The notes below the pieces were generated by a model that had not been told where the DNA came from, ran no database searches, and saw only the letters and a list, made by a program, of their open reading frames with translations. Below are positions 37,922-57,384 of a stretch of DNA of 64,000 nt, one piece after another. The translations under genes were made by a program, and so were the position numbers. Position 1 is the stretch's first letter. Every line of letters begins with the position of its first letter. Source of the stretch: Solobacterium sp. (GTDB taxonomy: Bacteria > Bacillota_I > Bacilli_A > Erysipelotrichales > Erysipelotrichaceae); the NCBI GenBank assembly GCA_022486705.1, contig JAKVKC010000001.1, positions 62,001 to 126,000 on the forward strand, written 5' to 3'.

Positions 37922-40900
37922 TCAGTTCGATACCGGTGTGCCATTCAGCGTTCCATTAGCAGTACCGCTGTTGGATTCACAGAGCTTCGAAGAATTGCTG
38001 ATGAATGCATTCACATCTCTTATCGTTCCAGAATTCTTACATGCAAAGTATTGCTTTATGCATACTGTTGGATATTCTTTTGTTCCTATTGCAATACTTG
38101 ATATAATTGATTGCCCTTGATTGCTATATATAAAGCCATATCCAGCAGAATTGTAATTGGTTATCGTTAATTTTCGTGCTAGGCCACGATTTCCTTCGCT
38201 GTAACCAATCCAAGCATATTGATTTGTTTCCGCGACAGTTTGAGAATCATATTGATAATAAATATCATGAATGGAAATATTATTGATTGTCCGTTCTGAT
38301 GATATAACTCCATAATTATCAATCATACCATCTTCATTTGAACCAATGATTCCAACATAAACTGGATGTTCAGCGGTTGAAGCAGGCACTGTAATATTCT
38401 GGATGACTATATTATTCATGCCAAAGTTATCAAATGAATTATTGTATCCACCATTCTTTCCAATAACACCATATGCCATTTCTTCTTGTCTATTTAGTAA
38501 AGTAACAGCATTAGATGAATTGATTGAAGAAATATTCACATAATTCAGATCACTGTCGGTAATTCTTCCGTTGTTACAACCAATTGCTCCCCAATATCTT
38601 GTATTCAGATATAGATTTTCCATAGTAAATCCTGTGGTATTATCTTTTGTTTTATCTTTTGATATTAACAGTTGATCTACAGAACCATTCCCATCTATAT
38701 TTCCAATCAAGCCACAGGTTCCGCCACTGATTATATGGGAGTCGGCTTTGCCATTTTCTGTGTCATTATAGATATAAGTATCTTGTACAGTTATATTATG
38801 TATTGTTCCAGATACACTTCCAATGATTGCTGTATTGTCAGCATCTGAAGTGATATTATAGAGCTTAACATTATATATCTGCATATTATCAACTCTTTTT
38901 TGCCAAACAACGCTTGAAAGCAATCCAACATTTGAAGTATCAGTACCATTTGGATTAGTCTTTATAATCGAGTCATGAATAGCAACATTATCAAATATCA
39001 ATCCATTTGCACTGCTTGTGAATTTTCCAAGCAAGCTGAAATTGTTAGTATATGCTTTTATTTCGTTGATATCACAGTTTTTAAATTGAACATTTTTCAA
39101 AGTTACACTGGTGTTATCTGACCCAATTATGCCGATCGCATTGAGATAATCAGATTCACTTCCAAATGTTATATTTGACATTGTTACATTTTCAAAAATA
39201 ATGTTTTCTAAATTTCCTTCCATGTCACTTATAAATGCACCGTAATTCTGATTATTCGTAGTAGCTTTTTGTATATCGTGCAATGATGTTTTGCCATCAA
39301 TTGATATACTGACGCGCAGATTTTTTATATTTGCGCCTGCGATCGTGTGTTTAATGAATGTGTTTTTCAAACCAGATAACAAAGGATATGTATGACTACC
39401 ATCTGCATTAATAAAATCTGTTCCTTGATACGACAGCCCATTATAAATACTGCTTATTGTTCCTACTGAATATTTCGACATATCGATATCAATAGCTTGT
39501 GTGATTGTACCATAAGAACTCAAAACATCTGTTGAGTTCCCAGTATCTTCATTAGTATGATCCATAATCACTTTTAACTGTTCTGCTGTACGAACAACAT
39601 ACGGTGCAACCGAATCGCTAGATTTGCGAATGCTATCTGCGAATCTTGGTTCGATATGATATGTATACGATGTTGAATTATACGTTTGTTTATTTAATGT
39701 GTACTGTGGCATCTTAACAGTTAAGGATAGATTCTTTTGTTTCCATAAAGCTCCTGTCCAAACACTGCTCCAATCAATAGATGAATCATCAAAATTAATG
39801 CGATATATATACTGATCAGCAATGCCAAGTTTTTGTGACATTTCTGCCGTAACGTCAGAAACAACCGGATGAGAAACAGAAGGCGTAGTCATCAGATCTT
39901 GCAGTGATGAGTCAGCCCAGTTCATCAGTACAAGACGAATCTTACTAGTATCATGAATCGTATCTTTTACTGTCTTGTTTATTGTAAATAAATATCCGGA
40001 TTCTGCAACAGAGAAACCAGTAGCAACTGTAAAGTTGCTATTTCCTGTTTCCACCTCACTAGAAGTAATGTTCCCATTAGTATCCGATGTCATTTTCACT
40101 GAATAACCGTGTGTCTGGTAAGAACCATCCGCATATCTTTCATAGTAAATCAAACCAGAATCAGCAGATTTTTTTGGCTGATAATAACTATCATATGTAA
40201 CTGCTGTAGTTTGGCTTCTCGTATTAATTGGAATCGATTTTGTTGGATTTAAATTAGCATCAAGACTATATGATGCAACAGATATAGGATAATCGCTGAA
40301 ATGCAAATTATAGAAATACGGTAAGAATCTGAAGGATGCTTCATATGTTGTATTAAAGTAATTTGAATCGCTTAATTTTTCAAACCTATTCTGCAGAGCT
40401 TCCTTTTCAGAATTGCTTGATGACTCAATAATTACATAATTGCTTCCTACATCTGCATCAATATCAATCTGACATGCAAAACCATCTTTTATTTGAGTTT
40501 TACAATCATCCGGCGTGAAAGTATAGGAATCAACTTTTGTTAAATTGTTTGAATTGTAGTCAATCAGATTATACTGAAATGTAGAGTAATCCGGATTAAA
40601 TTGATTTGTATCATACAAATCAAAATGAATATTTGCAATGATAAGATTACGATCTGCCTCAGATGCATTGCCATCAATATGAATATTCTTTGTTAATGTT
40701 ATTACTGCTTTTGGCTCTTCAGGAAAATCACCATAATGCAGATTTAATTCTGAAGTACTTGATTTCGTTGCCGGATATGGATACGTTGAGTCTACAACAG
40801 AAGAATTATATGGATTTGCTTGACTGTTACCAGTACTTTCCCTTGCCGCCTTTTGTATCAGTTCGTCATAATCATATTCAATAATTTTACGACCATTTAC

Positions 40901-43159
40901 TACTCCACCTTTGCCAATCGGCTGAATATCATTAAAATTAGACACTTTGTTAAGTATTCCAACACTATCTATCCATGAAATCTTATAATTCGTTTTTCCT
41001 ATAAATGATCCTGCAGTAACATTGTCTGCCATGCCAACACTTCCAGTTGAATAGACGTAAGACAAGCTAAGATTATATTTACTTTCATCAACTCCCAAAA
41101 ATCCACCGGCATATCCTTTGTTTATTCCATATACAGAAGCAGTTGAATATGAGTCTGTAACATCAACTTCTGTTTCCCTATTTTTGATAATACCAATAAA
41201 TCCCCCTGCAGTTCCGCCAGAAATATTGGAAGCCTCTGCAGAAGAAACATCATAATGATATTTATCCTTAACTTTACCGCCTACATAGGATTGCTCAATG
41301 GTCGACGTTCCAGCAGTAATGCTGCCAATCAAACCGCCAGCCGCGCCAGTATCTCCTTGGACCTTTACGGATGCTGAACAATTGGTAATTGTTGCTGTAC
41401 TGGCAATTTCACCAACAAGACCGCCAGCAGAGGAAGAAGATGATACTTTCCGCAATTCATATTCTTCTGCGCTTGTATGATCCTGCGTACTTGCACAATA
41501 AGAATGTATATTTGTCAGAGTTATCTGCTTATTTGCATTGCCTAAGAATGTGCCCGCATCTCCTTTACCTGTAGAAGATACATTGAAATTCACTAAATCA
41601 ATATCTTCAGCAGTAAACGCTTTTATTTTGGTTCCAACATTGCCAAATAATCCGCTGTTTTTTTCTTTAGCAGTGCTGATATCAAAATTGCTTAATGTAA
41701 ATCCATTTCCATCAAAATTCGTAAGTGTATCATTTTCAAGTGCTAAAAATTTCTGATCCGAAAGATCATATTCCTTATCGCCGCCGCCATTGTTTGTTGT
41801 AACAATGTTCTTACCATTCGGGGTCAATGCATTTGCTGCATATGCTGCCCAATCAATATCATTCTTTAATGAAGCTGAAGTCAGAGTAAAACCATTTTTG
41901 CTTGCATATCCAGACACTCTCTGTGAAAGGTTCGCTAGATGTCTTCCTGTACTGACAACTGCTTCATAAGTGCCACTTGTCTTATCTACTGTATTCACTG
42001 ATGCAAATAAAGAGTTGCCGATCTTTGCAGAGCTGACAAGAGCCACAGATGCATCTGAAGGATTCATTATGGATGCCATAACAGAAATATCCGAACCTGG
42101 TGTAATCTCTTTGAAAAGATCATTGAAATGCGTATTACGATTCGTAATGTCATCAAAGCATAGATGATATGTTATGCCTGTGGCAGAGGTATCTACTTTG
42201 ATAATGGCATTGTTCATTGCATCATCATAGACTCCTGAAGAGCCGCTTGATACAGTATACTTTCCCAATTTACTGTCATATGCAATGCTGAACACTGCTT
42301 CAGGAGGATCAGACAGTGTCGTAGACAGCTGCTTTACCGTAATCTTTACAGTTGTCTGGTTGCTCGTTGTCCAGTTGGGATCCTGGATGACTACTTCAAG
42401 CGTATTCTTATTAATTGCTAAATTTGAATCTTTATCATCTGCATCCACACCATCGTTATAAATATGAACGATAGGAGACTGCAGCTGCTTTGTCTGGTTC
42501 TTAAAGGCCACTGCTCCGCCATAATAGCCAACAGCGTATTTCTTCTTAGCATCTGCACTGAGCGTATATGCTTCTCTGGCTTCCTCATTGTCTTCATTAT
42601 CGATGAGGCCTGTTAGATCTGCCTGTGTGATAGTACCTTTATCCGTATAGAAAACACCGTATACAGATTCTGTATAGGCATCAAATACAATAATATAGCT
42701 TCCATCTGTACGTACAGTCTCATCAACAGAGCCAAAAGGCAGAAGCTGTCCTAAGACGCTCTTCTGACTGGTCAAGGCATCCTGATAGCTGCTGCTGTTG
42801 TAGATCACATAGTAATAGTCATGCTTTTCCGTACTGGAAATACTGTCATCTTTCAATGCCGTAGCACTGATGCTCTGCTGCCATTCATTGGATGTATTGA
42901 TCGATACTTTGCTGTCCTTATAGTATGCAGTCTGCCATACACCTGATGTTTTGGAAGCTGTTAGATGATTCTGAGCCGCAACAAAGATCTCTCTGGCAGT
43001 ATTGTCCATTTCCAGGCGCTTCAGCTTTCTCTGATACTTTGTGATCTCCACAAAGCCAAAGCTCACTAAAATGCCTGTGATCGCAATGACGATCAGCAGT
43101 TCTGCCAAGGTAAATCCCTTTTTTCCGCTTTGATGCAGTTTTCTCAGAGTCTCTCTCAT
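37922..43159 (-). CDS. Giant prepilin-like adhesin, 1745 residues
   Basis: The protein starts with a class III-type prepilin signal: GKKGFTLAELLIVIAITGIL, cleavage after Gly15, mature Phe1 and Glu5, then the long pilin helix to about residue 60. Instead of ending at 150-200 residues it continues for 1700 more. Residues about 550-820 carry GLUG-type beta-helix repeats (AGGLVGEIASTATITNCSAS; AGGLIGSITAGTSTIEQSYV; YAGGFLGVDESKYNLSLSYV). Residues about 1290-1745 form another Asn/Ile-rich beta-helix-like series. The start at 43159 has AAGGAAACT upstream. It follows pilMNO and a prepilin peptidase. It is probably a pilus-tip or surface adhesin. The DNA between about 38000 and 42400 is more AT-rich than its surroundings, suggesting domain exchange. 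Confidence 0.85.
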   Translation of the reverse strand: MRETLRKLHQSGKKGFTLAELLIVIAITGILVSFGFVEITKYQRKLKRLEMDNTAREIFVAAQNHLTASKTSGVWQTAYYKDSKVSINTSNEWQQSISATALKDDSISSTEKHDYYYVIYNSSSYQDALTSQKSVLGQLLPFGSVDETVRTDGSYIIVFDAYTESVYGVFYTDKGTITQADLTGLIDNEDNEEAREAYTLSADAKKKYAVGYYGGAVAFKNQTKQLQSPIVHIYNDGVDADDKDSNLAINKNTLEVVIQDPNWTTSNQTTVKITVKQLSTTLSDPPEAVFSIAYDSKLGKYTVSSGSSGVYDDAMNNAIIKVDTSATGITYHLCFDDITNRNTHFNDLFKEITPGSDISVMASIMNPSDASVALVSSAKIGNSLFASVNTVDKTSGTYEAVVSTGRHLANLSQRVSGYASKNGFTLTSASLKNDIDWAAYAANALTPNGKNIVTTNNGGGDKEYDLSDQKFLALENDTLTNFDGNGFTLSNFDISTAKEKNSGLFGNVGTKIKAFTAEDIDLVNFNVSSTGKGDAGTFLGNANKQITLTNIHSYCASTQDHTSAEEYELRKVSSSSSAGGLVGEIASTATITNCSASVKVQGDTGAAGGLIGSITAGTSTIEQSYVGGKVKDKYHYDVSSAEASNISGGTAGGFIGIIKNRETEVDVTDSYSTASVYGINKGYAGGFLGVDESKYNLSLSYVYSTGSVGMADNVTAGSFIGKTNYKISWIDSVGILNKVSNFNDIQPIGKGGVVNGRKIIEYDYDELIQKAARESTGNSQANPYNSSVVDSTYPYPATKSSTSELNLHYGDFPEEPKAVITLTKNIHIDGNASEADRNLIIANIHFDLYDTNQFNPDYSTFQYNLIDYNSNNLTKVDSYTFTPDDCKTQIKDGFACQIDIDADVGSNYVIIESSSNSEKEALQNRFEKLSDSNYFNTTYEASFRFLPYFYNLHFSDYPISVASYSLDANLNPTKSIPINTRSQTTAVTYDSYYQPKKSADSGLIYYERYADGSYQTHGYSVKMTSDTNGNITSSEVETGNSNFTVATGFSVAESGYLFTINKTVKDTIHDTSKIRLVLMNWADSSLQDLMTTPSVSHPVVSDVTAEMSQKLGIADQYIYRINFDDSSIDWSSVWTGALWKQKNLSLTVKMPQYTLNKQTYNSTSYTYHIEPRFADSIRKSSDSVAPYVVRTAEQLKVIMDHTNEDTGNSTDVLSSYGTITQAIDIDMSKYSVGTISSIYNGLSYQGTDFINADGSHTYPLLSGLKNTFIKHTIAGANIKNLRVSISIDGKTSLHDIQKATTNNQNYGAFISDMEGNLENIIFENVTMSNITFGSESDYLNAIGIIGSDNTSVTLKNVQFKNCDINEIKAYTNNFSLLGKFTSSANGLIFDNVAIHDSIIKTNPNGTDTSNVGLLSSVVWQKRVDNMQIYNVKLYNITSDADNTAIIGSVSGTIHNITVQDTYIYNDTENGKADSHIISGGTCGLIGNIDGNGSVDQLLISKDKTKDNTTGFTMENLYLNTRYWGAIGCNNGRITDSDLNYVNISSINSSNAVTLLNRQEEMAYGVIGKNGGYNNSFDNFGMNNIVIQNITVPASTAEHPVYVGIIGSNEDGMIDNYGVISSERTINNISIHDIYYQYDSQTVAETNQYAWIGYSEGNRGLARKLTITNYNSAGYGFIYSNQGQSIISSIAIGTKEYPTVCIKQYFACKNSGTIRDVNAFISNSSKLCESNSGTANGTLNGTPVSN

Positions 43160-43169
43160 AGTTTCCTTT

Positions 43170-43751
43170 TTAACTTTCTGAAGATGTTGTATCCACAAGT
43201 CCTTCGGTAGAAGAAGCACCGTTTGATGTTTCAAAGAAGGTCAGAGTCAAAGATACCGTTGTGGATGGATCAGATGTATTTGTTGAATTGGTGACCGTAA
43301 CACTGCTGATGATATTGCGATACTTCATATCGCTGATCGATTGGATCAGGGCACGGGCTGCATCATAGCTTCCTGTTTTAAAGGAAATCGATGCCTGTCT
43401 GCGTACTGTTGTATCGGTCAGTGTTGGAGCAGACCAGTTGATGGCAACGTTCTCTGCATTGCCATTCAGGATCGTTCCCAATGCATTGACTTCATTTGCC
43501 AGATTGTTATACACAGCAACTTCAGCCGTTGCTTTCGCTGCCGATGCATCTGCAATTGCCTGCTTCATCTGTGCTTCCTGACTTGCCTGCATCTGAGCCA
43601 AAGTCAATTCATCTTCCAGCTGAGCCGTATCATACTTAGCAGCACTCTCCGTAAATGCTTTATATACTGCTTCATAATAGAAGATGCCCAATGCCATGAC
43701 TGCCGCAATGCAGATCATGATCAGTTCTCTTGCTGTAAAGGAATGTTTCAT
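43170..43751 (-). CDS. pilO: PilO-like pilus assembly protein
   Basis: A 193-residue protein with one N-terminal membrane span (about 10-30), a coiled coil (about 40-85, rich in Ala/Gln/Glu) and a C-terminal alpha/beta domain typical of PilO. PilO pairs with PilN to form the alignment platform that links the inner-membrane motor to the growing pilus. Sequence identity is low in this family, so the call relies on size, topology and position after PilM and PilN. It overlaps pilN by one base and precedes the giant prepilin gene by 10 bp. Confidence 0.75.
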   Translation of the reverse strand: MKHSFTARELIMICIAAVMALGIFYYEAVYKAFTESAAKYDTAQLEDELTLAQMQASQEAQMKQAIADASAAKATAEVAVYNNLANEVNALGTILNGNAENVAINWSAPTLTDTTVRRQASISFKTGSYDAARALIQSISDMKYRNIISSVTVTNSTNTSDPSTTVSLTLTFFETSNGASSTEGLVDTTSSES

Positions 43752-44362
43752 CAGTTTGTACCTCCGACAGCATATGTAATCTCAAATGTTGCGATCACTG
43801 CATCTGTACTGGAAGAAGTTGCGTCACTGGTCGTTGTTACCGTGACATATTGGTTTCTCTTATCTGACTGCAGAGTAACGATCATGCTGGAGACAGCCGC
43901 CAGATTCGTTGTGCCTGTCTGTACAGTTACCTGTGAGCCCGTGATGGCAATGGACTGTATGGAAGCAGAAGGAATGATGTCTTCTTCGATCATCTTGAAG
44001 ATCTTCATGCGGTCTGTGCATACTTTCTCATCATCTGTTAAGAAGGAACCTACCGTTGTATCATACTTTGCCTTAACATCATTGTAATCCGCTGTCTGTT
44101 CATTCAATGCGGCGATCTGTTCCTGTACCTGATTGTACTGGGCCTGCGCTGTATTGACCTTAGCAATCTGCTTGATCACGCCGAAATATGTAAATGGGAC
44201 CAGCAGAAGCAGGAAGACACAGAATAAGACAACTGCTTTCTTATTATTCTTGGACTGTTCATCACTGATGAAGTTGATGCTTTTCTTTTCAGGCCACTTT
44301 GAAGTCTTCTTCTTAAAAGAGATCTCTTTATTCAATCCCGTTTTTTTCTTTTCCTCGCTCAT
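43751..44362 (-). CDS. pilN: PilN-like pilus assembly protein
   Basis: A 203-residue bitopic protein. The basic cytoplasmic N-terminus (about 40 residues) contains KKSINFISDEQSK, similar to the conserved INLLP-type segment that docks into PilM. A membrane span covers about 43-63, followed by a coiled coil (about 68-105) and a small alpha/beta domain. It lies 9 bp after pilM and overlaps pilO by one base. Assignment rests on order and topology. Confidence 0.75.
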   Translation of the reverse strand: MSEEKKKTGLNKEISFKKKTSKWPEKKSINFISDEQSKNNKKAVVLFCVFLLLLVPFTYFGVIKQIAKVNTAQAQYNQVQEQIAALNEQTADYNDVKAKYDTTVGSFLTDDEKVCTDRMKIFKMIEEDIIPSASIQSIAITGSQVTVQTGTTNLAAVSSMIVTLQSDKRNQYVTVTTTSDATSSSTDAVIATFEITYAVGGTN

Positions 44363-44371
44363 CCTGACCCC

Positions 44372-45361
44372 CTATTCTAAGCAGGCGCCCAATGCCGCCG
44401 CACCATTCAGCAGTGCATCCTGCTGAGATTCATCAAAACTGGAAAGCGGAATCAGGCTCAGAGCAACCGCATTGGCAACTTCCTGCACAAACGGCTGGAT
44501 CCATGCACCATAGCCATCATAGTAAAGATTATTCAATGTATTGCTTTGATTCTCATATGTGTAATAATTGATCGCTCTCATGACTTCAACTGCGATCTTT
44601 GTATAGACATCCTTGCATTCCTGGCTTGCCAATACATCATCATGATTGCTTTCCAGATAGGTCAATGCAATATGCGCATCGCAATGAAGCTTATCAGCAA
44701 TCGCAGATGCAACATCGGCCATACCGGAATCAATTGATCTTGTCGCTTCATATATGCCATTGTGGAAGATATCTACTTTTGTCTCATGATAGCCAAGATC
44801 CAATACAGCAGTATCATGAGTCAGATTATCTTCGCTCAGGCTCCGCATCAGTTCCTGCAGAGCAATGATCCGCGGGGCAGCCTTTACCAGCTTCAGTCCC
44901 GCATGAGCGAACAATGTCTGATAATGCTCCAGCATGTCTTTTGAGATAGCTGCGCCAAGCAGTTCCATTTCTTTCGGCTCCTGCGCATCGCCTTCCCCAT
45001 ACTTCATACCGATCATCGAATAATCAAAGGTATAATGCTCTTTGTCATCCTGGATCACATCCTTGAATTCATACGGCATATTGACCTTCAGCTGGCTCTC
45101 GCTCATCGCCGGCAGGACCATTCTTCTGACATAGCACGCTGCGTCAGGAATAACCACCGCCGCTTTCCTCGTTGAGAAGTGCCCTTCTTTGACCGCATTC
45201 TTCAGAACCTCTTCCAATGCATCCCAAGCAACGATCAGGCTGTCGCGAATACAGTCATCCGGTACAGGAGCACTGAAGAACGCAGATGCTCTGTCCTTGG
45301 ATACCTGCACAAGCTTGATCCTTTTTGTTGTGATCTCAACACCTAAGATATCATTTGACAT
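44372..45361 (-). CDS. pilM: PilM-like actin-fold ATPase
   Basis: A 329-residue cytoplasmic protein of the FtsA/PilM actin-like family. It begins ILGVEITTKRIKLVQVSKDR (phosphate-1 region) and has the second phosphate loop in AVLDLGYHETKVDIF and the C-terminal DALLNGAAALGACLE. PilM binds the PilN N-terminus and anchors the inner-membrane platform of the type IV pilus. It lies 31 bp after pilD. Confidence 0.88.
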   Translation of the reverse strand: MSNDILGVEITTKRIKLVQVSKDRASAFFSAPVPDDCIRDSLIVAWDALEEVLKNAVKEGHFSTRKAAVVIPDAACYVRRMVLPAMSESQLKVNMPYEFKDVIQDDKEHYTFDYSMIGMKYGEGDAQEPKEMELLGAAISKDMLEHYQTLFAHAGLKLVKAAPRIIALQELMRSLSEDNLTHDTAVLDLGYHETKVDIFHNGIYEATRSIDSGMADVASAIADKLHCDAHIALTYLESNHDDVLASQECKDVYTKIAVEVMRAINYYTYENQSNTLNNLYYDGYGAWIQPFVQEVANAVALSLIPLSSFDESQQDALLNGAAALGACLE

Positions 45362-45392: not shown

Positions 45393-46193
45393 CTATCTCA
45401 GCAATCCTGTATACCAAGCAACAATATATGGAATAATGGTAAATCCAAGATATACAGCAATGCTGATAGATGGACCAAATGGAATCTTATCTTTCTTTAA
45501 TACTAACACAAACACCAGACCGATAAAACATGCCAGCATCAGGGAGAAAAGCCCATTCAATGCACCTAAATACAGTCCTGCAACAAACAATAATTTGATA
45601 TCTCCGCCGCCCATGGATTCCTTTTTCAGTACCTTATCCATGATCAGCGAGATGACTAAGATCCCGCCGCCAAGGCATACCGCACCAATGGCACCGTTCT
45701 TGATCTGAGGCAGCGTATTCACGCCAAGCAATGCTTCCACGCCCATGCCCAGCAGCCACCATACAGCGCCGAAGATCAGATAGCCATCCGGGATCTCATA
45801 CTTTGCCAGATCCACCAGGGATAAGCCAAGCAATGCACATGTCATCCCCCATTCCAATGGGATCTGCCAAGTCAATGCCCACGCATGCCACATGATGCCC
45901 ATGAACGCACACGCCATCAGGATCTCGGTGATCAGATACTTCTTAGAAAGCTTTGCTCCGCAATAGCTGCACTTTCCATGATGGAACAGATAGCTGAAGA
46001 TCGGCACAAGATCACCGATGGATAATACATGTCCGCATGCATCGCAATGCGATCTTCCCTTCTTCCAATCCTCACCGCCAATGATCCGATCTGCCTGGCA
46101 GGTAATGAATGATCCAAATACCGCACCAAGGAAACCGCCGATCACAAACAGATAGACGATCATCCCAGTCGACAGAGCATCAAATGTGATCAT
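45393..46193 (-). CDS. pilD: Prepilin peptidase/N-methyltransferase
   Basis: A 266-residue aspartic membrane peptidase that cuts prepilin leaders before Phe and methylates the new N-terminus. The cytoplasmic loop after span 1 has two CxxC pairs (CDACGH and CSYCGAK) as in methylating PilD proteins. The two catalytic Asp are in the segment DLAKYEIPDGY and in MGGGDIKLLFVAG. Eight membrane spans can be drawn. ATG at 46193 has GGAGCG upstream and overlaps the preceding pilin-like gene by 4 bp. It serves all prepilins in the cluster, including the giant one. Confidence 0.93.
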   Translation of the reverse strand: MITFDALSTGMIVYLFVIGGFLGAVFGSFITCQADRIIGGEDWKKGRSHCDACGHVLSIGDLVPIFSYLFHHGKCSYCGAKLSKKYLITEILMACAFMGIMWHAWALTWQIPLEWGMTCALLGLSLVDLAKYEIPDGYLIFGAVWWLLGMGVEALLGVNTLPQIKNGAIGAVCLGGGILVISLIMDKVLKKESMGGGDIKLLFVAGLYLGALNGLFSLMLACFIGLVFVLVLKKDKIPFGPSISIAVYLGFTIIPYIVAWYTGLLR

Positions 46194-46648
46194 GATGCGC
46201 TCCTTCCTGGGACCCAGCATACGAATATTTCACCCTGATGAGCTGTGACCTGGATCACCATCGTATTCTTATCACCGTAATAGGATGCATCCGCAATATC
46301 CATCTCGGTATATTCGTTGTATCCATAGGGCTTTTCCGCCACGATATGCTTTGTTTCTTTGTCCAGATAGCCAAGCGTTGTACCATCTGTACCAACCTGA
46401 TGCGTACAGATACCGCCGGACTTGCTTGGGCAGTCCTGTACGACACATTCCAGACCATTATTGCTGTTGATCTTTGCTTCTGACTCTGCTGTATTTGCCA
46501 GCATGGAATCATTGCCATGCGCCGTATTCGCATGCATCCACTCAATTCCCTTATATCCAACAAACAGGCACATCACGGCAATGAAAATGATCAGCACCAA
46601 TTCCAGTACAGATATTTTTCCAATACTGTGATCCTGCCTTTCCATCAT
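46190..46648 (-). CDS. Pilin-like minor protein with atypical leader
   Basis: A 152-residue protein with one N-terminal hydrophobic helix (SIGKISVLELVLIIFIAVMC) preceded by a short polar stretch. The helix carries a Glu in VLELVLII at the place of the Glu5 of pilins, but the canonical Gly-Phe cleavage site is missing; the nearest Gly is followed by Lys. The outer domain has four Cys (CVVQDC, GGIC, FVCWVP), suggesting two disulphides. It is coupled to pilD by a 4-bp overlap and starts an operon with its own promoter. Probably a minor pilin or pilus-associated protein. Confidence 0.65.
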   Translation of the reverse strand: MMERQDHSIGKISVLELVLIIFIAVMCLFVGYKGIEWMHANTAHGNDSMLANTAESEAKINSNNGLECVVQDCPSKSGGICTHQVGTDGTTLGYLDKETKHIVAEKPYGYNEYTEMDIADASYYGDKNTMVIQVTAHQGEIFVCWVPGRSAS

Positions 46649-46801: not shown

Positions 46802-47902
46802 TTATTTCGTATCTTCATTCTGTGCTTTCACTGATTTCAGTTCCGGCAGTTCCTGTTCCAGGCACTTCAGCATCAATGGTGAGAACGCACCGCACTCTCC
46901 ATTCATGATCATGTGGTATGCCTCATCGCAGGTATATGCTGCTTTGTAGACCCGTTTGCTTGTCAATGCATCAAAGACATCTGCTAAAGAGACGATCTGT
47001 GCAGAGATAGGGATCTCCTCGCCCTTCAGTCCCTCCGGATATCCTTTTCCATCATACTTCTCATGGTGGTATCGGCAGATCTCATAGCTGAGCTTATGGG
47101 ATTCCTCATCCTGTGCCCATTCCAATTCCTGAACGATCTCTGCCCCTTTCTCCGTATGGGTCTTCATGACATCAAACTCTTCACTTGTCAGTTTCCCTGG
47201 TTTCAGGAGCACACTGTCTGGGATCGTGATCTTCCCCATATCATGCAGTACAGAAGCTTCTGAGATCTTTTCCACATCCTTTTCGTTCAATCCATACTCC
47301 GGTGCATTCTTCATGACCCATTCCGCTAAGATCTTCGAAAAAAACTTCATCCGTTTCACATGCTGTCCTGATTCAAGACTTCTGAATTCCACAATACTGC
47401 TCATCACATCCACAATATTGCTGTTGGTCGCTTTCTGTATCTTCTCCTGTTTCTCCAGCTTCTTTACCTGTTTCTCCAGGATCCTTGTCTGGTTCTTCAC
47501 TGTCGCCTCAAGATGTTTCTTGCTGGCATACATCTCTACGGCCCGCTTCAGTCTTGCTTTAACGATTGTTCCATCAAACGGTTTATGGATAAAATCAAAA
47601 GCTCCATGTTCATATCCCTGTCTTTCGAAGGCAACGCTTGTATCCGCCGATACTAACAGGACCGGGATCTTTTCCAGCATCTGATTCTCCTGCATTTTAT
47701 CCAATACCTGGAAGCCATCCATATTCGGCATAATGACATCCAAAAGAACAGCAGAAATACTGTCGCCATGTTCCTTCAGTACCTGCATTGTTTCCAGCCC
47801 ATCCCGAGCTTCCAGCAGATCATAATCTGCATGCAGGATCTCCCGCAGGATCACACGATTCAGTTCAATATCATCTGTAATCAATACCGTTCCGCTCTTC
47901 AT
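46802..47902 (-). CDS. Response regulator with HD-GYP c-di-GMP phosphodiesterase domain
   Basis: A 366-residue protein. The receiver domain (1-120) has VLITDDIELN, phosphoacceptor Asp in AVLLDVIMPNMDG, and Lys in FIHKPFDG. A coiled coil (125-165) links to an HD-GYP domain (about 170-345) with LHDMGKITIPDSVL (HD), metal ligands in KTHTEKG and RYHHEKYDGKGYPEGLKG (His-His and GYP), and SLADVFDALTSKRVY. HD-GYP domains hydrolyse cyclic di-GMP. Located inside the pilus cluster next to an Hpt protein, it may tune c-di-GMP for the pilus motor PilB, which carries c-di-GMP motifs. Confidence 0.92.
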   Translation of the reverse strand: MKSGTVLITDDIELNRVILREILHADYDLLEARDGLETMQVLKEHGDSISAVLLDVIMPNMDGFQVLDKMQENQMLEKIPVLLVSADTSVAFERQGYEHGAFDFIHKPFDGTIVKARLKRAVEMYASKKHLEATVKNQTRILEKQVKKLEKQEKIQKATNSNIVDVMSSIVEFRSLESGQHVKRMKFFSKILAEWVMKNAPEYGLNEKDVEKISEASVLHDMGKITIPDSVLLKPGKLTSEEFDVMKTHTEKGAEIVQELEWAQDEESHKLSYEICRYHHEKYDGKGYPEGLKGEEIPISAQIVSLADVFDALTSKRVYKAAYTCDEAYHMIMNGECGAFSPLMLKCLEQELPELKSVKAQNEDTK

Positions 47903-47917
47903 ATTCCACCTATCATT

Positions 47918-48270: not shown

Positions 48271-49155
48271 TTATTGTTCCGTATCCGGATACGAATTGTA
48301 GAAAGCTACTATTTCTTTATAGTTTGTTTTGATATTATCCTGCAGTTTTTCGCTTTTCCCAATTTCTTCCCAGACCATATTGTTAGGAAGTGTCGAGCTG
48401 ATATTCAAAGCATTGTAGGAACTGCCATTCGCATCCGTATAGGACACTACTTCTACATAAGCTGCAGTATACGTTCCCTTTTTAGGATTGTATCGAATGA
48501 CCTTTACCTTATCCCCTGCTTTCAATCCCGAAATATCAACATCCGTTATGGTGATCGTATATGTACTCCCAGCTGACTCAAGCGTCACTTTCCATGATGC
48601 AATTGCAGTGTCTGGAAATGCCTTATATAGTTCTGCACTCAGTGCCTGTACATTCGCATTGGCAGTATCACCTGAATTCAGACTGTATGTGGAATTATTG
48701 AAGTACTTTACCGTTGAGCTAAAATCACTGCTCAGATTCTTCGAAACATAAAGTGCTGGATTCTGATTGTTCACCATCTCATCTTTCAAAGAAGTATTTG
48801 TCCATGTTGCAGTTACAGATCCATCCGCAATAGTGCATGTCAGCAGCTGTCCCACATGGGATACAGGATCACTGCCTGCTTCAGTTCCCTGCCCATATCC
48901 CGCAATGTCTGCCCGCGTCGTACTGAATTCCCCTGTTTCCGCATTGTAGTACTGACGGTTCTTGCTGAAGTCCTTATCAATGGCACATTCAGCTAGGTAA
49001 GATGTCTTAGCAGCCGCAATGTAATTCTTATCACTGCTTTCTTTATTATTCTCTACGATCCATGAGAAAACGGGTATGCTGACTGCAGTCAAGCAGCCAA
49101 CAATCGCAACCGTGACCAACAATTCGCCTAAGGTGAATCCCGCTCTTCTCTTCAT
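48271..49155 (-). CDS. Prepilin, 294 residues
   Basis: The N-terminus RRAGFTLGELLVTVAIVGCL is a canonical prepilin signal with cleavage Gly-Phe and Glu5. A long helix follows to about residue 55, then a 240-residue globular domain without recognised family, rich in Ser/Thr/Asn. The domain is larger than in common pilins. It is cotranscribed with Hpt and HD-GYP genes (11 bp to Hpt), an unusual arrangement that couples a pilin to signalling genes. It may be a minor or alternative pilin. Confidence 0.85.
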   Translation of the reverse strand: MKRRAGFTLGELLVTVAIVGCLTAVSIPVFSWIVENNKESSDKNYIAAAKTSYLAECAIDKDFSKNRQYYNAETGEFSTTRADIAGYGQGTEAGSDPVSHVGQLLTCTIADGSVTATWTNTSLKDEMVNNQNPALYVSKNLSSDFSSTVKYFNNSTYSLNSGDTANANVQALSAELYKAFPDTAIASWKVTLESAGSTYTITITDVDISGLKAGDKVKVIRYNPKKGTYTAAYVEVVSYTDANGSSYNALNISSTLPNNMVWEEIGKSEKLQDNIKTNYKEIVAFYNSYPDTEQ

Positions 49156-51382: not shown

Positions 51383-51754
51383 TTACTCAGCTGCTAATGT
51401 AACTGTGCTTCCGCTTACTGTAACAGAAATCTTTGTATACAGTGCATTACCCTGAGCAGTACTAATTTCTGAAATTGTCTTTTCTGTTTCTGCTGTTGAT
51501 ACAGCAGTGATTGTTCCTGCTTCAATATTGTAATCATAAATAATTTTATCTGTAGTTTTCTCTGCCGTTGATAAATATTCAGATACTGCAGCACCCTTTG
51601 CAGCTCTCAAGTTAGCTTCATTTGTAGCTTTTCTTGCTTTATCAAGCTGTGACGTGAAGATCGGGATAGAGATTGCTACGAGTACAGCGATGATTGCGAC
51701 GACGACCAATAGTTCGGCCAGTGTGAAGCCCTTCTTCTTGTTTAACTTTTTCAT
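51383..51754 (-). CDS. pilA: Major type IV prepilin (PilA-like)
   Basis: A 123-residue prepilin beginning KKLNKKKGFTLAELLVVVAI: basic leader, Gly-Phe cleavage at residues 9/10, Glu5, and a hydrophobic helix ending at about residue 33. The small outer domain (about 85 residues) is Ala/Thr/Ser-rich and has no Cys. Compact size, its own promoter and terminator and a strong GAGGAG site point to the abundant major subunit. The longer open frame upstream of 51754 is not used in this reading. Confidence 0.9.
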   Translation of the reverse strand: MKKLNKKKGFTLAELLVVVAIIAVLVAISIPIFTSQLDKARKATNEANLRAAKGAAVSEYLSTAEKTTDKIIYDYNIEAGTITAVSTAETEKTISEISTAQGNALYTKISVTVSGSTVTLAAE

Positions 51755-51806
51755 ATTCTTCTCCTCTAGTTTTATCAGTAATAAGTTAATTACTGTCTGT
51801 ACCCAT

Positions 51807-51835
51807 AATCTAGCATTCATGCTTTTTTCATGCAA
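51807..51835 (-). promoter_or_regulatory. Candidate promoter of major pilin
   Basis: On the minus strand TTGCAT (51830-51835) and TAGATT (51807-51812) are 17 bp apart in the 126-bp gap after pilC. A 7-bp hairpin CAGTAAT/ATTACTG follows in the leader, and an inverted repeat ATACTC/GAGTAT (51845-51862) lies upstream. Confidence 0.45.
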
Positions 51836-51880: not shown

Positions 51881-53095
51881 CTACATGTAGTTGTACATCG
51901 TAAACATTGGAAGATAGATAGCCAATACAATAAAGCCTGCAATAATAGCGATGAAGACAAGCATGGTCGGTTCGAGACGGGCAATCATCTTTTGAGTTGC
52001 GTACTCTGTTTCCTGCGTATAATACGCACCGACTGTCTGCAGTGTCTTAACCAGTTCACCTGTACGTTCACCAACACCTGTCATCTCTTTTAAGACATCT
52101 GGGAAGAACTCAGAAGACTTGATGACATCACTGAGCGCAGCACCCGTTTCGATCTTTTCGCTCATACTGGATACTTCTTTTGCAATAGCATAGTTGTCGA
52201 TGCATTTCGAAGTGACCTTCAGTGCCTGAGCTACCGTAAGACCTGAACCAATCAGAGATGCCATAGAAGTTGAGAACTGCTGTGAAGCATTGAGCTTATT
52301 GATCTTGCCCATAGTAGGCATCTTCAATGTCAGCTTTGACCACTGCAGTTTTCCTTTTTCATTATGTGTCCAGAGCTTGAAAGCAATGAACAGTACGGCA
52401 GCGATGCCGGCAATCAGCATCCATCCTTTTTGAAACCAGTTGGTAATGGCAATCAGGACTACTGTGATCGTTGGAAGTTCCCCGCCGAAGTCATTGAACA
52501 TGCTGGTAAATGTCGGCATGACTTTGACCATGATGATGACTAGGACAACAGCAGCCACTGCCAATACGAACATTGGATAGGCCATTGCGCTCTTGGTCTT
52601 CTGGGCGACCAGATTGGATCTTTTATAGTACTCATATAAGTTATTGAAGGACTGGTCCAGTGTACCGGACATTTCTCCTGCCCGCACTGTCTCAATGAAT
52701 AAAGGCGGCAGCTGCGGATAGTTCTTTTCAAAAGCTGTAGCGAGAGAAGTTCCCTGGGCAACATCTTCAGCCGACAGGGACAGCATCTTCTTGAGCTTCT
52801 TGTCTTCTGTCTGGGCACTGACCATGTTCAGACATCCTTCAATACTGATGCCGGAGCCGATAATGACCGCAAACTGTGAGCACATGACTGAGAGTGCTTT
52901 GGCATCGACTTTCTTGCCGCCGATATCTGCACCCAAAATATCATAGATCCCGCCCTTTTTAACTGGCTCGATCTTTAAGACGATCGGACAGTCAGCCCGG
53001 ATCTTTTCTACTGCGGCAAATTCATCAATGGCATTGACGACCCCATTGACTTTATCTCCATCGGGAGAAAGTGCTGAGTATTTATATGTGATCAT
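51881..53095 (-). CDS. pilC: PilC inner-membrane platform protein
   Basis: A 404-residue GspF/PilC family protein with the two repeated T2SSF domains (about 70-190 and 275-395) and three membrane spans (about 170-195, 218-240 and 375-400). Signature elements include VRAGEMSGTLDQSFNNLYEYY and MTGVGERTGELVKTLQTVGAYY. It forms the rotating platform on which PilB and PilT act. It overlaps the pilT stop by 4 bp (ATGA). Confidence 0.94.
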   Translation of the reverse strand: MITYKYSALSPDGDKVNGVVNAIDEFAAVEKIRADCPIVLKIEPVKKGGIYDILGADIGGKKVDAKALSVMCSQFAVIIGSGISIEGCLNMVSAQTEDKKLKKMLSLSAEDVAQGTSLATAFEKNYPQLPPLFIETVRAGEMSGTLDQSFNNLYEYYKRSNLVAQKTKSAMAYPMFVLAVAAVVLVIIMVKVMPTFTSMFNDFGGELPTITVVLIAITNWFQKGWMLIAGIAAVLFIAFKLWTHNEKGKLQWSKLTLKMPTMGKINKLNASQQFSTSMASLIGSGLTVAQALKVTSKCIDNYAIAKEVSSMSEKIETGAALSDVIKSSEFFPDVLKEMTGVGERTGELVKTLQTVGAYYTQETEYATQKMIARLEPTMLVFIAIIAGFIVLAIYLPMFTMYNYM

Positions 53096-54195
53096 TGGCC
53101 ATTACCTACCTTTACATGCTGATAATTGATGGATGAGCTGAAGCTGGAGCCGACATTCTTTCTGACATATTCACTGTCGCTGGCTGCTTCTACAGCAGAA
53201 GCAGATGAAATAATGTTCGCTTTGACCATCTTCAATAAGCAGTTGTCCATCGTGACAGATCCTAAATTGATGGAAGAAAGCAGGGCACTCTGCATCTGTG
53301 TTGTCTTGCCTTCGCGGATCATATTCTGAATGGCCGGTGTCATGATCATAGCTTCGCATGCGGCTGCTCTTCCTTTTCCCTGCTTGCGTACAAGAAGCTG
53401 CTGGGAAAGAACAGCTTTCAATGTCATCGATAACTGCAGACGGATCTGCGGCTGTTTTTCAGCTGGAAAAGCACCGACAATACGGTCGACCGAATCAACG
53501 GCACTGTTGGTATGCAGAGTCGCAAAGACAAGATGTCCTGTTTCTGCAGCCGTCATTGCAATTTCGATTGTTTCGGCATCTCTCATTTCACCGATCAGGA
53601 TGATATCCGGATCTTCTCTTAAGATTGCCCGCAGTCCCTCGGCATAGGATCCCGTATCTGTACCGATCTCTCTTTGATTGACCAGGCATTGATCCGGTTT
53701 GTAGATATACTCAATAGGATCTTCCAAGGTAATGATATGTTCCTTGCGTGTGTGATTGATCTGATCCAGGATGGCTGCTAATGTTGTAGACTTTCCGGAA
53801 CCAGTCTCACCAGTGACCAGGATGATCCCCTTCTGCCAAGTGACAAACTCATTGACGATCGGCGGAAGGCCCAAGGTATTCAATGCTGGAATGTCATCCG
53901 AAAGAATACGCAGAGATGCAGAAATGGATCCCTGCTGGCGGAATAGGTTGATACGGATACGATGGCCGGAAATTGTTGAGGCTAGATCGATCTCACCTAC
54001 TTTTGCCAGTTCCTGATAGCGTTCTCCTGCCAGTGTTTTTGCATAGGCATGGCAGTCTGCATCGCTCAAAGGATCCTGCTTGGCATTCTGCAGCAGTCCA
54101 TCAATGCGGAATTTCGGCGGTACGCCTTTGACCAGATGAATATCTGAAGCACCGGCTTCGGCTGCTGTTTGGATCAATTCTTCTATTGTCTGCAT
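53092..54195 (-). CDS. pilT: PilT retraction ATPase
   Basis: A 367-residue hexameric ATPase. An N-terminal PAS-like domain covers 1-100 (AGASDIHLVKGVPPKFRIDG), with Walker A LVTGETGSGKSTTLAA, the Asp box HIITLEDPIEYIY, Walker B DPDIILIGEMRDAETI and the His box TGHLVFATLHTN. The retraction-specific AIRNLIRE-type C-terminal motif reads AIQNMIREGKTTQM. It depolymerises the pilus, so this system is probably retractile, allowing twitching or DNA uptake. AAGGGAGG precedes the ATG. Confidence 0.93.
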   Translation of the reverse strand: MQTIEELIQTAAEAGASDIHLVKGVPPKFRIDGLLQNAKQDPLSDADCHAYAKTLAGERYQELAKVGEIDLASTISGHRIRINLFRQQGSISASLRILSDDIPALNTLGLPPIVNEFVTWQKGIILVTGETGSGKSTTLAAILDQINHTRKEHIITLEDPIEYIYKPDQCLVNQREIGTDTGSYAEGLRAILREDPDIILIGEMRDAETIEIAMTAAETGHLVFATLHTNSAVDSVDRIVGAFPAEKQPQIRLQLSMTLKAVLSQQLLVRKQGKGRAAACEAMIMTPAIQNMIREGKTTQMQSALLSSINLGSVTMDNCLLKMVKANIISSASAVEAASDSEYVRKNVGSSFSSSINYQHVKVGNGQ

Positions 54196-54213: not shown

Positions 54214-55902
54214 TTATTCAATCGTGGCAACTTCGCGGACAGCTTCATCCAAAGTCGTGATGCCTTTAGCCACCAAGTCTCTCGCATTGGCGATCATCGG
54301 TACGAAGTCGCCGCTCTCATTGACTACTTTGCGCAGTTCCGTCGAGCTTAAGCCAGCAGTGATGGCATCTCTCAGTTTGCTGTTCATGGTCAGGATCTCA
54401 AAGACACCGGTACGTCCGCGGTATCCTGTGCCGAAGCACATATGGCATCCTTTGCCATGATAGAAATGATATTTGCTTGGATCCTTGATCCCGGCAATAT
54501 CCAGCATGTGAGCAGATGGTACGATCTCTTCTTTGCAGTTCGGGCAGATCCTGCGCAGCAGTCTCTGTGAAACGATACCGCGCACAGAACCGCCGATCAG
54601 ATATGGTTCCACGCCAAGATCTTTTAAACGATCAATTGCGCTGATCGCATCTTCGGTATGAATGGTGGATAAGACTAAATGTCCTGTCATAGCTGCCTGC
54701 ATCGCGATCTGAGCGGTTTCGCCATCGCGGATCTCGCCGACACAGATAATATCCGGGTCCTGCCGCAGACATGCACGCAGGGCACTGGCAAAGGTAAGGC
54801 CTACTTTCTCATTGATAGCGACCTGGGTCACACCATCAATCTGGAATTCGACTGGGTCTTCCAAGGAGATCATATTGACCGTATCGCTCTTGAGCTCTTG
54901 GATCATCGTATACAGAGTGGAAGTCTTGCCCGACCCTGTCGGTCCGACGATCAGGATCATACCGGCACTGTTCTCTAGGATCCGATCAAACTTTGCATTA
55001 TCTCTTTCGGTAATACCGATGCCCTGCCGCGTCAGTGTCTTCTGATCACGGGAAAGGATACGGATTACAACTTTCTCGCCGTATATTGTAGGAAGTGTAG
55101 AAAGACGGAGATCAACGTTTGTACCATCCGGTCTGCGTACAACGGCACGGCCATCCTGCGGTACTCTGCGCTCCGTAATATTCATATTGGACATGACTTT
55201 AAAACGTGAAATAACAGCAGCCTGCAGTTCCTTTGGAATGGTCAGCACCTGCGTCAGTCTGCCATCGACTCTGATCCGTACGACCATTTCATGTTCCCTT
55301 GGTTCGACATGAATATCAGATGCTTTCTCGGCAACGCCTCTTTCCAGGATACTGTTCACCAGTTTGACCGTTGGGGCTGCCGCACCATCATTGGCTGCCT
55401 GCGCATCTTCTGCCGCTTCCGCAACGGTGACGCCTCTTTCTTCCTGCATCTGTTCAATGGCCAAAGCAGCGCCTTCATTCTCATAGAGAACAGAAAGTGC
55501 TCTGCCTACTGCATCGGAATATGCGATCATCGGTGTCACTCTCTTTTTGGATACTTCTTTCGCTGCTTCAATGGCACGGAAGTTCAGCGGATCCTCCATA
55601 GCGATCCACAGACGATCTCCCTGTACCTTGACCGGTACGATCCGATACTGCTTGGCAATATTCTTTGGAATATACTTTGCCATACTGGGATCAATCTTTT
55701 CATTATTCAGATCTTCAAAATCAATGCCAAGCTGCATCTTTAAAGTATCGATCAGCTGCATCTCGGTAATGAACTTATTCTCGATCAATACGGTTCCCAA
55801 TCTTTTTCCGCTGGTCTTCTGAATGCTCAGTGCACGGTTCAGATCTTCTTCTGACAACACCCCTGCATCCTGCAGGATCTCACCTAATCGTCTGTACTGC
55901 AT
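54214..55902 (-). CDS. pilB: PilB extension ATPase with MshEN c-di-GMP-binding domain
   Basis: A 562-residue extension motor. The N-terminal MshEN domain has two 24-residue motifs with five residues between: RLGEILQDAGVLSEEDLNRA to Gln28 (5-28) and RLGTVLIENKFITEMQLIDT to Gln57 (34-57), matching the tandem cyclic di-GMP-binding signature of MshE. The ATPase has LIVGPTGSGKTSTLYT (Walker A), ISLEDPVEFQ, CVGEIRDGETAQ and GHLVLSTIHTED. A tetracysteine zinc site is present (CPNCKEE and CHMCFGTG). GGGAGG precedes the ATG. Cyclic di-GMP binding is predicted from motif only. Confidence 0.94.
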   Translation of the reverse strand: MQYRRLGEILQDAGVLSEEDLNRALSIQKTSGKRLGTVLIENKFITEMQLIDTLKMQLGIDFEDLNNEKIDPSMAKYIPKNIAKQYRIVPVKVQGDRLWIAMEDPLNFRAIEAAKEVSKKRVTPMIAYSDAVGRALSVLYENEGAALAIEQMQEERGVTVAEAAEDAQAANDGAAAPTVKLVNSILERGVAEKASDIHVEPREHEMVVRIRVDGRLTQVLTIPKELQAAVISRFKVMSNMNITERRVPQDGRAVVRRPDGTNVDLRLSTLPTIYGEKVVIRILSRDQKTLTRQGIGITERDNAKFDRILENSAGMILIVGPTGSGKTSTLYTMIQELKSDTVNMISLEDPVEFQIDGVTQVAINEKVGLTFASALRACLRQDPDIICVGEIRDGETAQIAMQAAMTGHLVLSTIHTEDAISAIDRLKDLGVEPYLIGGSVRGIVSQRLLRRICPNCKEEIVPSAHMLDIAGIKDPSKYHFYHGKGCHMCFGTGYRGRTGVFEILTMNSKLRDAITAGLSSTELRKVVNESGDFVPMIANARDLVAKGITTLDEAVREVATIE

Positions 55903-55918
55903 GATTGATTTCCTCCCT

Positions 55919-56452
55919 TTATTTCGTATTATTCGGCTTTACCGAGATCTGCTGTGTTTCCAAAGCTTTGCCTGACTTGATATCATATACAGAGATGGTA
56001 AAGCTGAAGACTCCTTTTGTTTTATCATACTGAAGATTTGTTTTTGGTTCTTTGCTGTATTCCAGATAGGTATACAGACCTTCTGTATTTGTTTTATCCG
56101 TTACCAGCGGCATGGATTTCAAGCCAGAGGTATCGCCGTCTTTTGGCTTTACGAGGATGCCTTGGGAAAGACTGTCTGTTTCATTGGCATAATAGATGGT
56201 ATATCCTCGTGCCGAAGTATAGAAGGAACCATCATCATTGATCTGCGAAGGATCTGCATTTCTCAGATCATTGGTGATCTCCATCACTGCCGTTGACAGC
56301 AGTGTCTGTGCATTGGCTTTCTTTGTGATATTTGTATAGGCTTTCTGATAGGCAATAAAGCCGCCGGAAATAGCTAAGAAAACAACGCCGATCAAAGTCA
56401 CTGTGATCAATGTCTCCGCTAGGGTAAAACCTGCACGCAGCCGCCGTTTCAT
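55919..56452 (-). CDS. Minor prepilin (PulJ/PilW-like)
   Basis: A 177-residue prepilin with leader MKRRLRAGFTLAETLITVTL: cleavage Gly-Phe, Glu5. The domain after the helix (KANAQTLLSTAVMEITNDLR) resembles minor pilins of the PulJ/PilW group, which start pilus assembly. It starts 1 bp after the previous gene and leads 16 bp into pilB. Start at 56452 is set by the leader and an AGGCAG site; the longer open frame reads into the previous gene. Confidence 0.85.
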   Translation of the reverse strand: MKRRLRAGFTLAETLITVTLIGVVFLAISGGFIAYQKAYTNITKKANAQTLLSTAVMEITNDLRNADPSQINDDGSFYTSARGYTIYYANETDSLSQGILVKPKDGDTSGLKSMPLVTDKTNTEGLYTYLEYSKEPKTNLQYDKTKGVFSFTISVYDIKSGKALETQQISVKPNNTK

Positions 56453-56453
56453 A

Positions 56454-56798
56454 TTAACTGCCTGCCTTTTCATAAGATACATACTGCTTTGCTGTATCGC
56501 CGCTGCCAACCGTCTCAGAAGAGATCGTTACGGCAATGCCGCTCTGATTGATAGTTGTCGTGCCGCTTCCGCTGACCGCAATGGTCCCTTTGGATGTTTC
56601 ACTGGATCCTTCTTCAAAGGCATTGCGTTCGGTATAGTATGTGCTTAAAGAATCATCTGTTTTCTGGATTGCATTATAAGAGATGCTGATAAGATTGGCT
56701 GCCATGACAAAAGCCATCGCCACCACTAAGGATGCGACCAGTACTTCACTGATCGATTCGCCGCTTTTGTTCTTCAGCTTCTGTTTGATCTTTCCCAT
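56454..56798 (-). CDS. Minor pilin-like protein with non-canonical leader
   Basis: A 114-residue protein beginning MGKIKQKLKNKSGESISEVL then a hydrophobic helix (VASLVVAMAFVMAANLISIS). The leader is basic and short as in prepilins, and Glu lies five residues after the Gly-Glu junction, but the usual Phe is Glu. The pattern recalls PulI/PilV-type minor pilins (GxSLxEVLVA). The outer domain is Ser/Thr-rich. It is the second gene of the pilB operon. Confidence 0.7.
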   Translation of the reverse strand: MGKIKQKLKNKSGESISEVLVASLVVAMAFVMAANLISISYNAIQKTDDSLSTYYTERNAFEEGSSETSKGTIAVSGSGTTTINQSGIAVTISSETVGSGDTAKQYVSYEKAGS

Positions 56799-56811: not shown

Positions 56812-57384
56812 CTACTGTATCGTAATCACTGGATCATTCCAGGTGACACTGCTTCCCTTGCCTTGTGTCGTATTGCTGTCTGCCGTCGCTGCCGAGAAGT
56901 ACTGCGTTACTTTGCGGGCAGTGCCGTTCTTTGTATAGATGACCGTAACGTTATAACTGTCATCCATGGTGATAGCAGCTGTGACCGGTGCGGTGCTGAT
57001 GCTTGTATCGCCTAAGGTAAAGGTGATCGACTGCACTGCCGGAACTTTGCTATTGTTATATGTCGCGATGCACAGGGCATCATACAGCGTATCCATCGTT
57101 GAAGAAGCAGGCACTGTAATCTGACCGTCTTTTATTGTATGTTCAGAAGCTTTCCATATTTTTTTCTCAAAAGAAGGATTCATCAGACCGGCTGCGCTCT
57201 TTAAGAGATATACATCGCGGTCATTTTCCCAAGTTGATGTCAAAGTACCGCTGGATGACATCGCTGCCGCTAAGACAGTTGAATCGATCATTGCGCAGAA
57301 CAAAAACACAAGAAGTGCCAGCACTAAGGAAGCGCCCGATTTCGATTTCAGTTTTTCTTCTGTCTTTCTGCCTATGATATGCAT
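56812..57384 (-). CDS. PilX-like pilus protein, first gene of pilus operon
   Basis: A 190-residue protein with a basic leader and a membrane helix: LKSKSGASLVLALLVFLFCA. This matches the N-terminal pattern of PilX/PulK-type minor pilins (GxSLVxALLxF), which lack Glu5 and cap the pilus tip. The rest is a beta-rich domain without recognised family. A promoter with TATAAT is found 27 bp before the ATG. The ribosome site GGAAGGAC is 9-11 nt upstream. Confidence 0.7.
   Translation of the reverse strand: MHIIGRKTEEKLKSKSGASLVLALLVFLFCAMIDSTVLAAAMSSSGTLTSTWENDRDVYLLKSAAGLMNPSFEKKIWKASEHTIKDGQITVPASSTMDTLYDALCIATYNNSKVPAVQSITFTLGDTSISTAPVTAAITMDDSYNVTVIYTKNGTARKVTQYFSAATADSNTTQGKGSSVTWNDPVITIQ

Follow-up and report, generated by a model that had tools for sequence, protein, structure and literature searches.

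A probable giant modular minor pilin with its own extension in the type IV pilus cluster of an Erysipelotrichaceae bacterium

The window, a stretch of 64,000 nucleotides from the genome of a Solobacterium sp., contains a complete type IV pilus cluster that is encoded on the reverse strand and that ends with a giant modular pilin gene (37922..43159). The cluster begins with genes for a PilX/GspK-like minor pilin (56812..57384), which has a leader-like GASLVLALL and, as is the case for GspK, no Glu5, and for a PilW/GspJ-like minor pilin (55919..56509), a homologue of which immediately precedes the modular pilin at 58 of 78 related loci. There follow pilB (54214..55902), pilT (53092..54195) and pilC (51881..53095), recognized from their translations and from a gene order that is conserved in relatives, a major-type, pilA-like pilin (51383..51835) and a 294-aa prepilin (48271..49155), both of which match PF07963, and genes for an HD-GYP response regulator and an Hpt protein (46802-48259), whose presence suggests c-di-GMP-type or phosphorelay control of the cluster. 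The prepilin peptidase gene pilD (45393..46220; PF06750 and PF01478) is followed by pilM (44372..45361; PF11104, E 4.7e-22), by a pilN-like gene (43751..44362) assigned through family searches and relatives, and by a pilO-like gene (43170..43751) assigned from its position, a weak T2SSM match and its conserved place beside the giant in relatives. Both a prepilin peptidase and an assembly machine are therefore encoded near the giant pilin. Two other genes of the cluster, on the same strand, encode a 152-aa protein of unknown family (46190-46648), which lies directly before pilD also in the distant relatives L095-L098, L113 and L133, and a 644-aa multi-spanning membrane protein (49309-51243), whose GC3 of 0.29 is the lowest among genes of the window, which had no NCBIfam match and which is possibly a pilin glycosyltransferase.

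A preliminary description of this DNA had regarded the giant as a true pilus component, and the finding of a true pilin gene inside a complete type IV pilus cluster supports that view. The same description had the gene cotranscribed with pilD and pilMNO; the genes share a strand and nearly touch (the gap between pilO and the giant is 10 bp), and it is from this arrangement that we infer cotranscription itself. To its account of the cluster must be added the further pilin genes at 48271-49155, 51383-51835 and 55919-56509.

The giant pilin gene is a single open frame of 1,745 codons plus a stop that starts with the ATG at 43159, which is preceded by AAAAAGGAAAC, an AGGA-type ribosome-binding site. 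Its N-terminus, MRETLRKLHQSGKKG/FTLAELLIVIAITGILVSFGFVEI, is that of a textbook prepilin, with a charged leader, a Gly15/Phe16 junction, Phe1 and Glu5 in the mature protein and a hydrophobic stretch of about 20 residues; the match to the Pfam N_methyl family PF07963 (25.1 bits against a cut-off of 21.2) and a concurring match to TIGR02532 confirm the leader that had first been read from the sequence alone. Judging from the motif, PilD would cleave the protein after Gly15. Across all 1,745 residues, hydropathy analysis identified the pilin helix as the only strongly hydrophobic stretch, and we found neither an LPxTG-type or other sortase motif nor an HExxH zinc motif. A sortase-anchored adhesin, which would have an LPxTG-type C-terminus, and an M26 IgA1 protease, which would have HExxH, were on these grounds set aside as identities for the protein.

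An assembly artefact that joins a pilin gene to an adhesin gene would be one way to account for so long a frame, and in relatives the distal part is frequently a separate gene. However, another genome from this genus (G019), which was assembled independently, contains an intact 1,750-aa orthologue at the same location that is 88% identical to the protein in the window, and the divergence between the two is of the coding type throughout (dN/dS 0.21 overall, 0.03-0.04 for residues 1-240, which include the pilin part, and 0.12-0.48 for the remaining segments). Because the orthologue is intact and full-length and dN/dS is low, frameshift and misassembly can be ruled out; many unrelated extended members of the family also speak against an artefact, and we regard a gene pieced together from two as hardly credible. 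Nor are the pilin part and the repeat part always separate genes, the other circumstance that had been named as fatal to the original reading: a beta-helix is covalently attached to the pilin in every family member that has an intact start.

To obtain a view of the domain architecture, we modelled residues 1-822 with AlphaFold2 from an alignment of 59 rows (mean pLDDT 79). The prepilin leader (residues 1-15) and the pilin alpha1 helix (residues 16-71, modelled as helical from 18 to 71) are encoded by 42947..43159, and this helix would be the sole membrane or filament anchor. The rest of the pilin globular region (residues 72-225; 42485..42946), which is under the strongest purifying selection and has host-like GC3, was modelled as a mixed region with middling confidence; the listed fold matches of the model were dominated by other domains and included no pilin. 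It is followed by an Ig-like beta-sandwich (residues 226-385; 42005..42484; VIA-align Z about 9 to Ig-fold chains) and by a GLUG-type right-handed beta-helix (residues 385-804; 40748..42004). The latter superimposes on 3n6z, a Bacteroides IgA1-protease-like protein with a GLUG helix, with a Z of 28.7 (3.4 A over 300 residues) and on IgA1 proteases with a Z of 24-27, a fold that Foldseek also supports, and a profile of the family matches 3n6z with an E of 1.3e-6; further fold matches include M26 proteases, pectate lyases and depolymerases. The GLUG-type beta-helix that had been proposed is thus upheld at the level of the fold, and less so by Pfam, where PF07581 recognizes one GLUG unit only, at 20.1 bits and below the gathering cut-off of 20.5. 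The core ends with HYGDF (residues 808-812; 40724..40738), an instance of the family motif HxGD[WFY]; H808, G810 and D811, together with Gly15 and Glu20 of the leader region, are invariant among the 59 diverse sequences of the core alignment.

Beyond the core lies a lineage-specific C-terminal extension (residues 826-1745; 37925..40684), in which we found no Pfam domain. Its sequence, which is repeat-rich and rich in Asn, Ser and Thr, and the nature of its relatives suggest that it would be the adhesive part. A second GLUG-like beta-helix stretch is found within it (residues about 1402-1496; 38672..38956; family GLUG profile E 1.2e-5, against 0.044 for the best of 200 shuffled controls). Structure prediction, which the preliminary description had called for, was informative for the core and not for the extension, where a model of 931 aa built from two aligned sequences reached a pLDDT of 33. 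The extension, of about 930 aa, is 86% identical in G019, has a weak 25% match in one other genome (G048) and has a match of high identity nowhere else. The adhesive part had been proposed to be exchangeable between strains; what we see is exchange between species only, in that the extensions of other species are unrelated, and the nearest relative keeps the same one. An AT-rich centre had also been described. Instead, GC3 is about 0.4-0.5 over the first ~330 residues and about 0.25 from there to the end of the protein, compared with a median of 0.51 for 43 genes of the window. This step is common to the G019 orthologue and is not general in the family, and it fits, rather than proves, the acquisition of a module.

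We then considered the distribution of such proteins. Matches to the giant pilin came from 25 of the 273 genomes in the taxonomic family, and those that covered the core were confined to two genera, the others being to pilin N-termini. A wider scan of named genomes yielded 79 core loci in Erysipelotrichaceae, Lachnospiraceae, Oscillospiraceae, Anaerovoracaceae, Coriobacteriia and Granulicatella, mostly in metagenome-assembled genomes from rumen and gut and also in some isolates. At the 69 loci that were not cut by contig ends, the pilins had a median length of 825 aa and a maximum of 3,413 aa, and 21 exceeded 1,000 aa, so that prepilin homologues of the length that the preliminary description had suggested looking for do exist; one prepilin that is cut by the end of its contig exceeds 4,295 aa. 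Prepilins of more than 3,900 to 4,295 aa, each cut by the end of the sequence, are encoded at L098 (9785-22670), L104 (7686-20025) and L139 (6288-18129). The loci usually adjoin two minor pilins, and where a PilW-like gene is not the immediate upstream neighbour, pilO may be (9 of 78 loci). The majority of members are core-only, that is, they end 7-20 residues past HYGDW, or consist of tandem beta-helix copies that end likewise. Tandem pilins of this kind, at L161, L171, L119, L146 and L168, have one pilin start and two or three HYGDW-ended helices, with an Asn tail at the last one only. The giant pilin in the window belongs to the extended class, many members of which adjoin pilO.

Core-only pilins differ from extended ones in their neighbours. 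Another giant open reading frame was found within 3 kb at 27 of 36 core-only loci compared with 2 of 16 extended loci (Fisher p 4e-5), counts that are rough in that they include only loci with enough flank and ignore kinship, and in that L166 was counted as core-only and resembles a frameshifted extended gene and L135, one of the extended exceptions, has only a tRNA-synthetase-like neighbour. The complete separate giants are of 4,774-6,322 aa in five relatives from the family of the window genome and of 3,079 aa in L172; they have a Sec-type signal at their start and contain MBG, Flg_new and SpaA domains, and none of 49 distinct giant C-termini has a sortase motif. Their last domain is SpaA (PF17802, E 1e-9 to 1e-16), the top PDB matches of which are Gram-positive pilin and adhesin domains of the same fold. 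Five residues of this terminal domain are invariant in 18 aligned examples, among them a first-strand Lys and the Glu of YYxxE, which correspond in position to the lysine that forms the isopeptide and to the glutamate that catalyses it in CnaB/SpaA domains. The last strand that would bear the Asn is missing in 47 of the 49 distinct C-termini, and many of the penultimate SpaA domains, just before the terminal one, retain it (27 distinct strands, for example YTILNES and YGVMNI). The giant upstream of the pilin at L108 is an exception, in that it is unanchored and ends TVRLTNN, seemingly with its own last strand. As a control, we considered a 2,856-aa anchored giant adhesin of the window genome itself (L189 931-9501, contig C22), in which about 14 SpaA domains are combined with the sortase-type end VPVDTG; this protein finishes with a complete strand, LKIANTE, before VPVDTG.

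The tails of the core-only pilins have the form HYGDWPxPExxxxN-[T/E/K...], with the Asn at position 14 in 48 of 53 and at position 13 in 3 of 53. The Asn tail is confined to true C-termini; internal copies of HYGDW and most of the extended proteins are without it. The window protein reads HYGDFPEEPKAVIT at this place, after which the sequence continues, and there is no free xPExxxxN tail. One core-only pilin, at L159 (8313-10649), has the tail WVRED in place of the Asn tail, in a genome that does have the terminal SpaA domain of the giants, and the Asp could stand in for the Asn by analogy with SpyTag.

These observations raise the possibility that the tail and the unfinished domain (hereafter, the catcher) form a natural SpyTag/SpyCatcher pair, in which the pilin tag HYGDWPxPExxxxN-[T/E/K] would complete the C-terminal SpaA/CnaB domain of a giant adhesin secreted by the Sec route, probably through a Lys-Asn isopeptide, and so load unanchored giants covalently onto the tips of type IV pili in Bacillota and Coriobacteriia of the gut and rumen; the pilin in the window would be a single-chain alternative. 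From sequence evidence, we hold this proposal to be evenly poised. The competing view, which we consider possible if somewhat doubtful, is that the tail is the last strand of the pilin's own cap, that the missing SpaA strand is loop variation and that the two do not interact. Searches with a catcher profile that had been trained on other loci gave matches at E<=1e-12 in 26 of 29 genomes with free-tail pilins, including genomes without a giant beside the pilin, and nearly all top matches finished 11-51 residues before the end of the protein; among 14 genomes with extended pilins, the window genome included, there were none at this threshold, and the profile search found no catcher in the window genome (G000). 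In the 273 genomes of the family, matches of at least 90 bits were found only in the five that have free-tail pilins, and since those five were in the training set of the profile it is the absence elsewhere that is informative. Because the state of the tail changes only about three times on the tree, giving two independent pairs, the co-occurrence counts do not constitute independent evidence, and to this extent they leave room for a lack of interaction.

More direct comparisons also favour the view that the two do not interact. When a matrix made from the giants' own last strands was applied to the pilins, the tail had a median rank of about 11 among 47 Asn sites and was not singled out, and appending tails to terminal SpaA domains with their native linkers did not lengthen the Pfam match, while appending them with trimmed linkers gave 0.4 to 2 bits more than shuffled tails in four of five cases and a loss in one, which is no clear gain in score. 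Against a lack of interaction stand the restriction of the tail to true C-termini and the near-fixed position of its Asn (51 of 53), the place of the Lys and Glu among the five invariant residues of the terminal domain, and the C-termini of the giants, nearly all of which lack the Asn strand and none of which has a sortase motif. In addition, at five loci (L102, L103, L104, L139 and L158) the Asn of the tail is kept and the frame runs on into a stretch related by homology to the separate giants, at roughly 28-45% identity across 140-2,200 aa, and these five in-frame fusions argue that the modular pilin works together with the giant. At L158 (2163-10868), the full 2,901-aa fusion ends in a terminal SpaA domain without its last strand, and the chain could close on its own tail as a lasso. 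The extension of the window protein has no such homology to separate giants, and we therefore group this pilin with the other extended ones. Because the direct tail test was negative and the profile-extension tests pointed clearly in neither direction, we put forward the coupling as a hypothesis from anatomy, and a covalent bond between tail and SpaA domain would go one step further.

For the protein in the window, the reading that we consider likely is that it serves a type IVa-like pilus as a giant modular minor pilin and carries its own adhesive extension, probably at the tip, where most relatives would instead take up a separate giant. The pilin helix would anchor it in the membrane to begin with and later in the pilus. 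Minor-pilin synteny and the analogy with GspIJK/PilVWX lead us to propose the tip as the most likely location, shared with the two minor pilins (PilX/GspK-like and PilW/GspJ-like). According to the model and to homology, the Ig-like stalk and the GLUG beta-helix would form a platform up to HYGDF, which in this protein would lead straight into an adhesive extension of 930 aa and present it at the end of a dynamic filament; in most relatives it would end in the short Asn tail and recruit a secreted giant by completing its C-terminal SpaA domain. The protein might instead be a membrane-tethered surface adhesin, whose pilin leader serves only for insertion and anchoring and which is never polymerised. 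The alpha1 helix is plausible as a membrane anchor, and a filament would be heavily laden by a protein of this size, which in relatives exceeds 4,000 aa. However, no part of the protein is as constrained as the pilin domain, Glu5 is kept throughout, and in Bacillota and Coriobacteriia alike the gene has kept its place among pilus and minor-pilin genes, none of which a plain anchor would need; we think a tether of this kind unlikely. Less probable still is that the beta-helix is an enzyme whose substrate, at the pilus tip, is a polysaccharide or a protein. Although the fold matches include proteases, pectate lyases and depolymerases, the protein has no HExxH and no match to an enzyme family in Pfam or NCBIfam, and the stretch of the IgA1 proteases that is matched is their GLUG beta-helix region, which we presume not to be the catalytic domain.

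How, then, does a giant modular minor pilin compare with known systems? It shares the fold of its beta-helix with the IgA1-protease GLUG proteins (3n6z, 6xja, 7uvk; Z 24-29), from which it differs in having no protease motif and in being fused to a pilin rather than sortase-anchored. We take IPR011493 to be the GLUG entry. Modular pilins are known in 264 architectures, among which the pair of N_methyl and IPR011493 is listed, and the most extreme multi-domain example is a protein of 860 residues in which one motif occurs 12 times (Raynaud 2021, PMC8179133). PilB and PilC of Streptococcus sanguinis likewise combine a prepilin N-terminus with a large non-pilus module and a role in adhesion in a monoderm host (PMC8179133; PMC9934059). 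A pilin that carries an adhesive module is thus of a kind already known (PMC8179133), which qualifies the initial impression of an unusual surface system; it is in size that the impression holds, since the window protein, at 1,745 aa, and its relatives, at more than 4,000, go far beyond 860 residues. It differs from modular pilins also in its beta-helix platform with a conserved end motif and in that the family adds a lineage-specific extension or a separate partner. In the CofB/CofJ and TcpB/TcpF systems of type IVb pili, a minor pilin at the tip displays a Sec-exported partner that is encoded separately at the same locus, and the N-terminal peptide of the partner hooks non-covalently into the pilin trimer (PMC9565799), whereas in relatives of the window protein the partner would accept the C-terminal strand of the pilin through its own C-terminal SpaA domain, possibly covalently. 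The engineered split CnaB pairs, SpyTag/SpyCatcher among them (PMC6539128, PMC5487036), share the combination of a Lys/Glu domain that lacks its last strand with an Asn/Asp peptide; unlike these, the pair in the relatives would be natural and in two proteins. In a 2025 survey (PMC12617251), phage capsids and a helical hairpin are the only natural cases mentioned in which intermolecular isopeptides form autocatalytically, and in the literature that we searched, which included few subscription journals, there was no study of a GLUG pilin and no natural tag/catcher or split SpaA pair on type IV pili. The window protein would accordingly be a new giant variant among modular pilins, and the tag/catcher pairing would be new if confirmed.

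Our findings suggest that common bacteria of the gut and rumen may bear, on their type IV pili, adhesins whose length ranges from 1,700 to beyond 6,000 residues and exceeds that of normal pilins by an order of magnitude. They also raise the mechanical question of how a pilus could assemble and retract with cargo of this size. Should the split-domain reading be true, nature docks adhesins on retractile pili by the same trick that is used in SpyTag/SpyCatcher.
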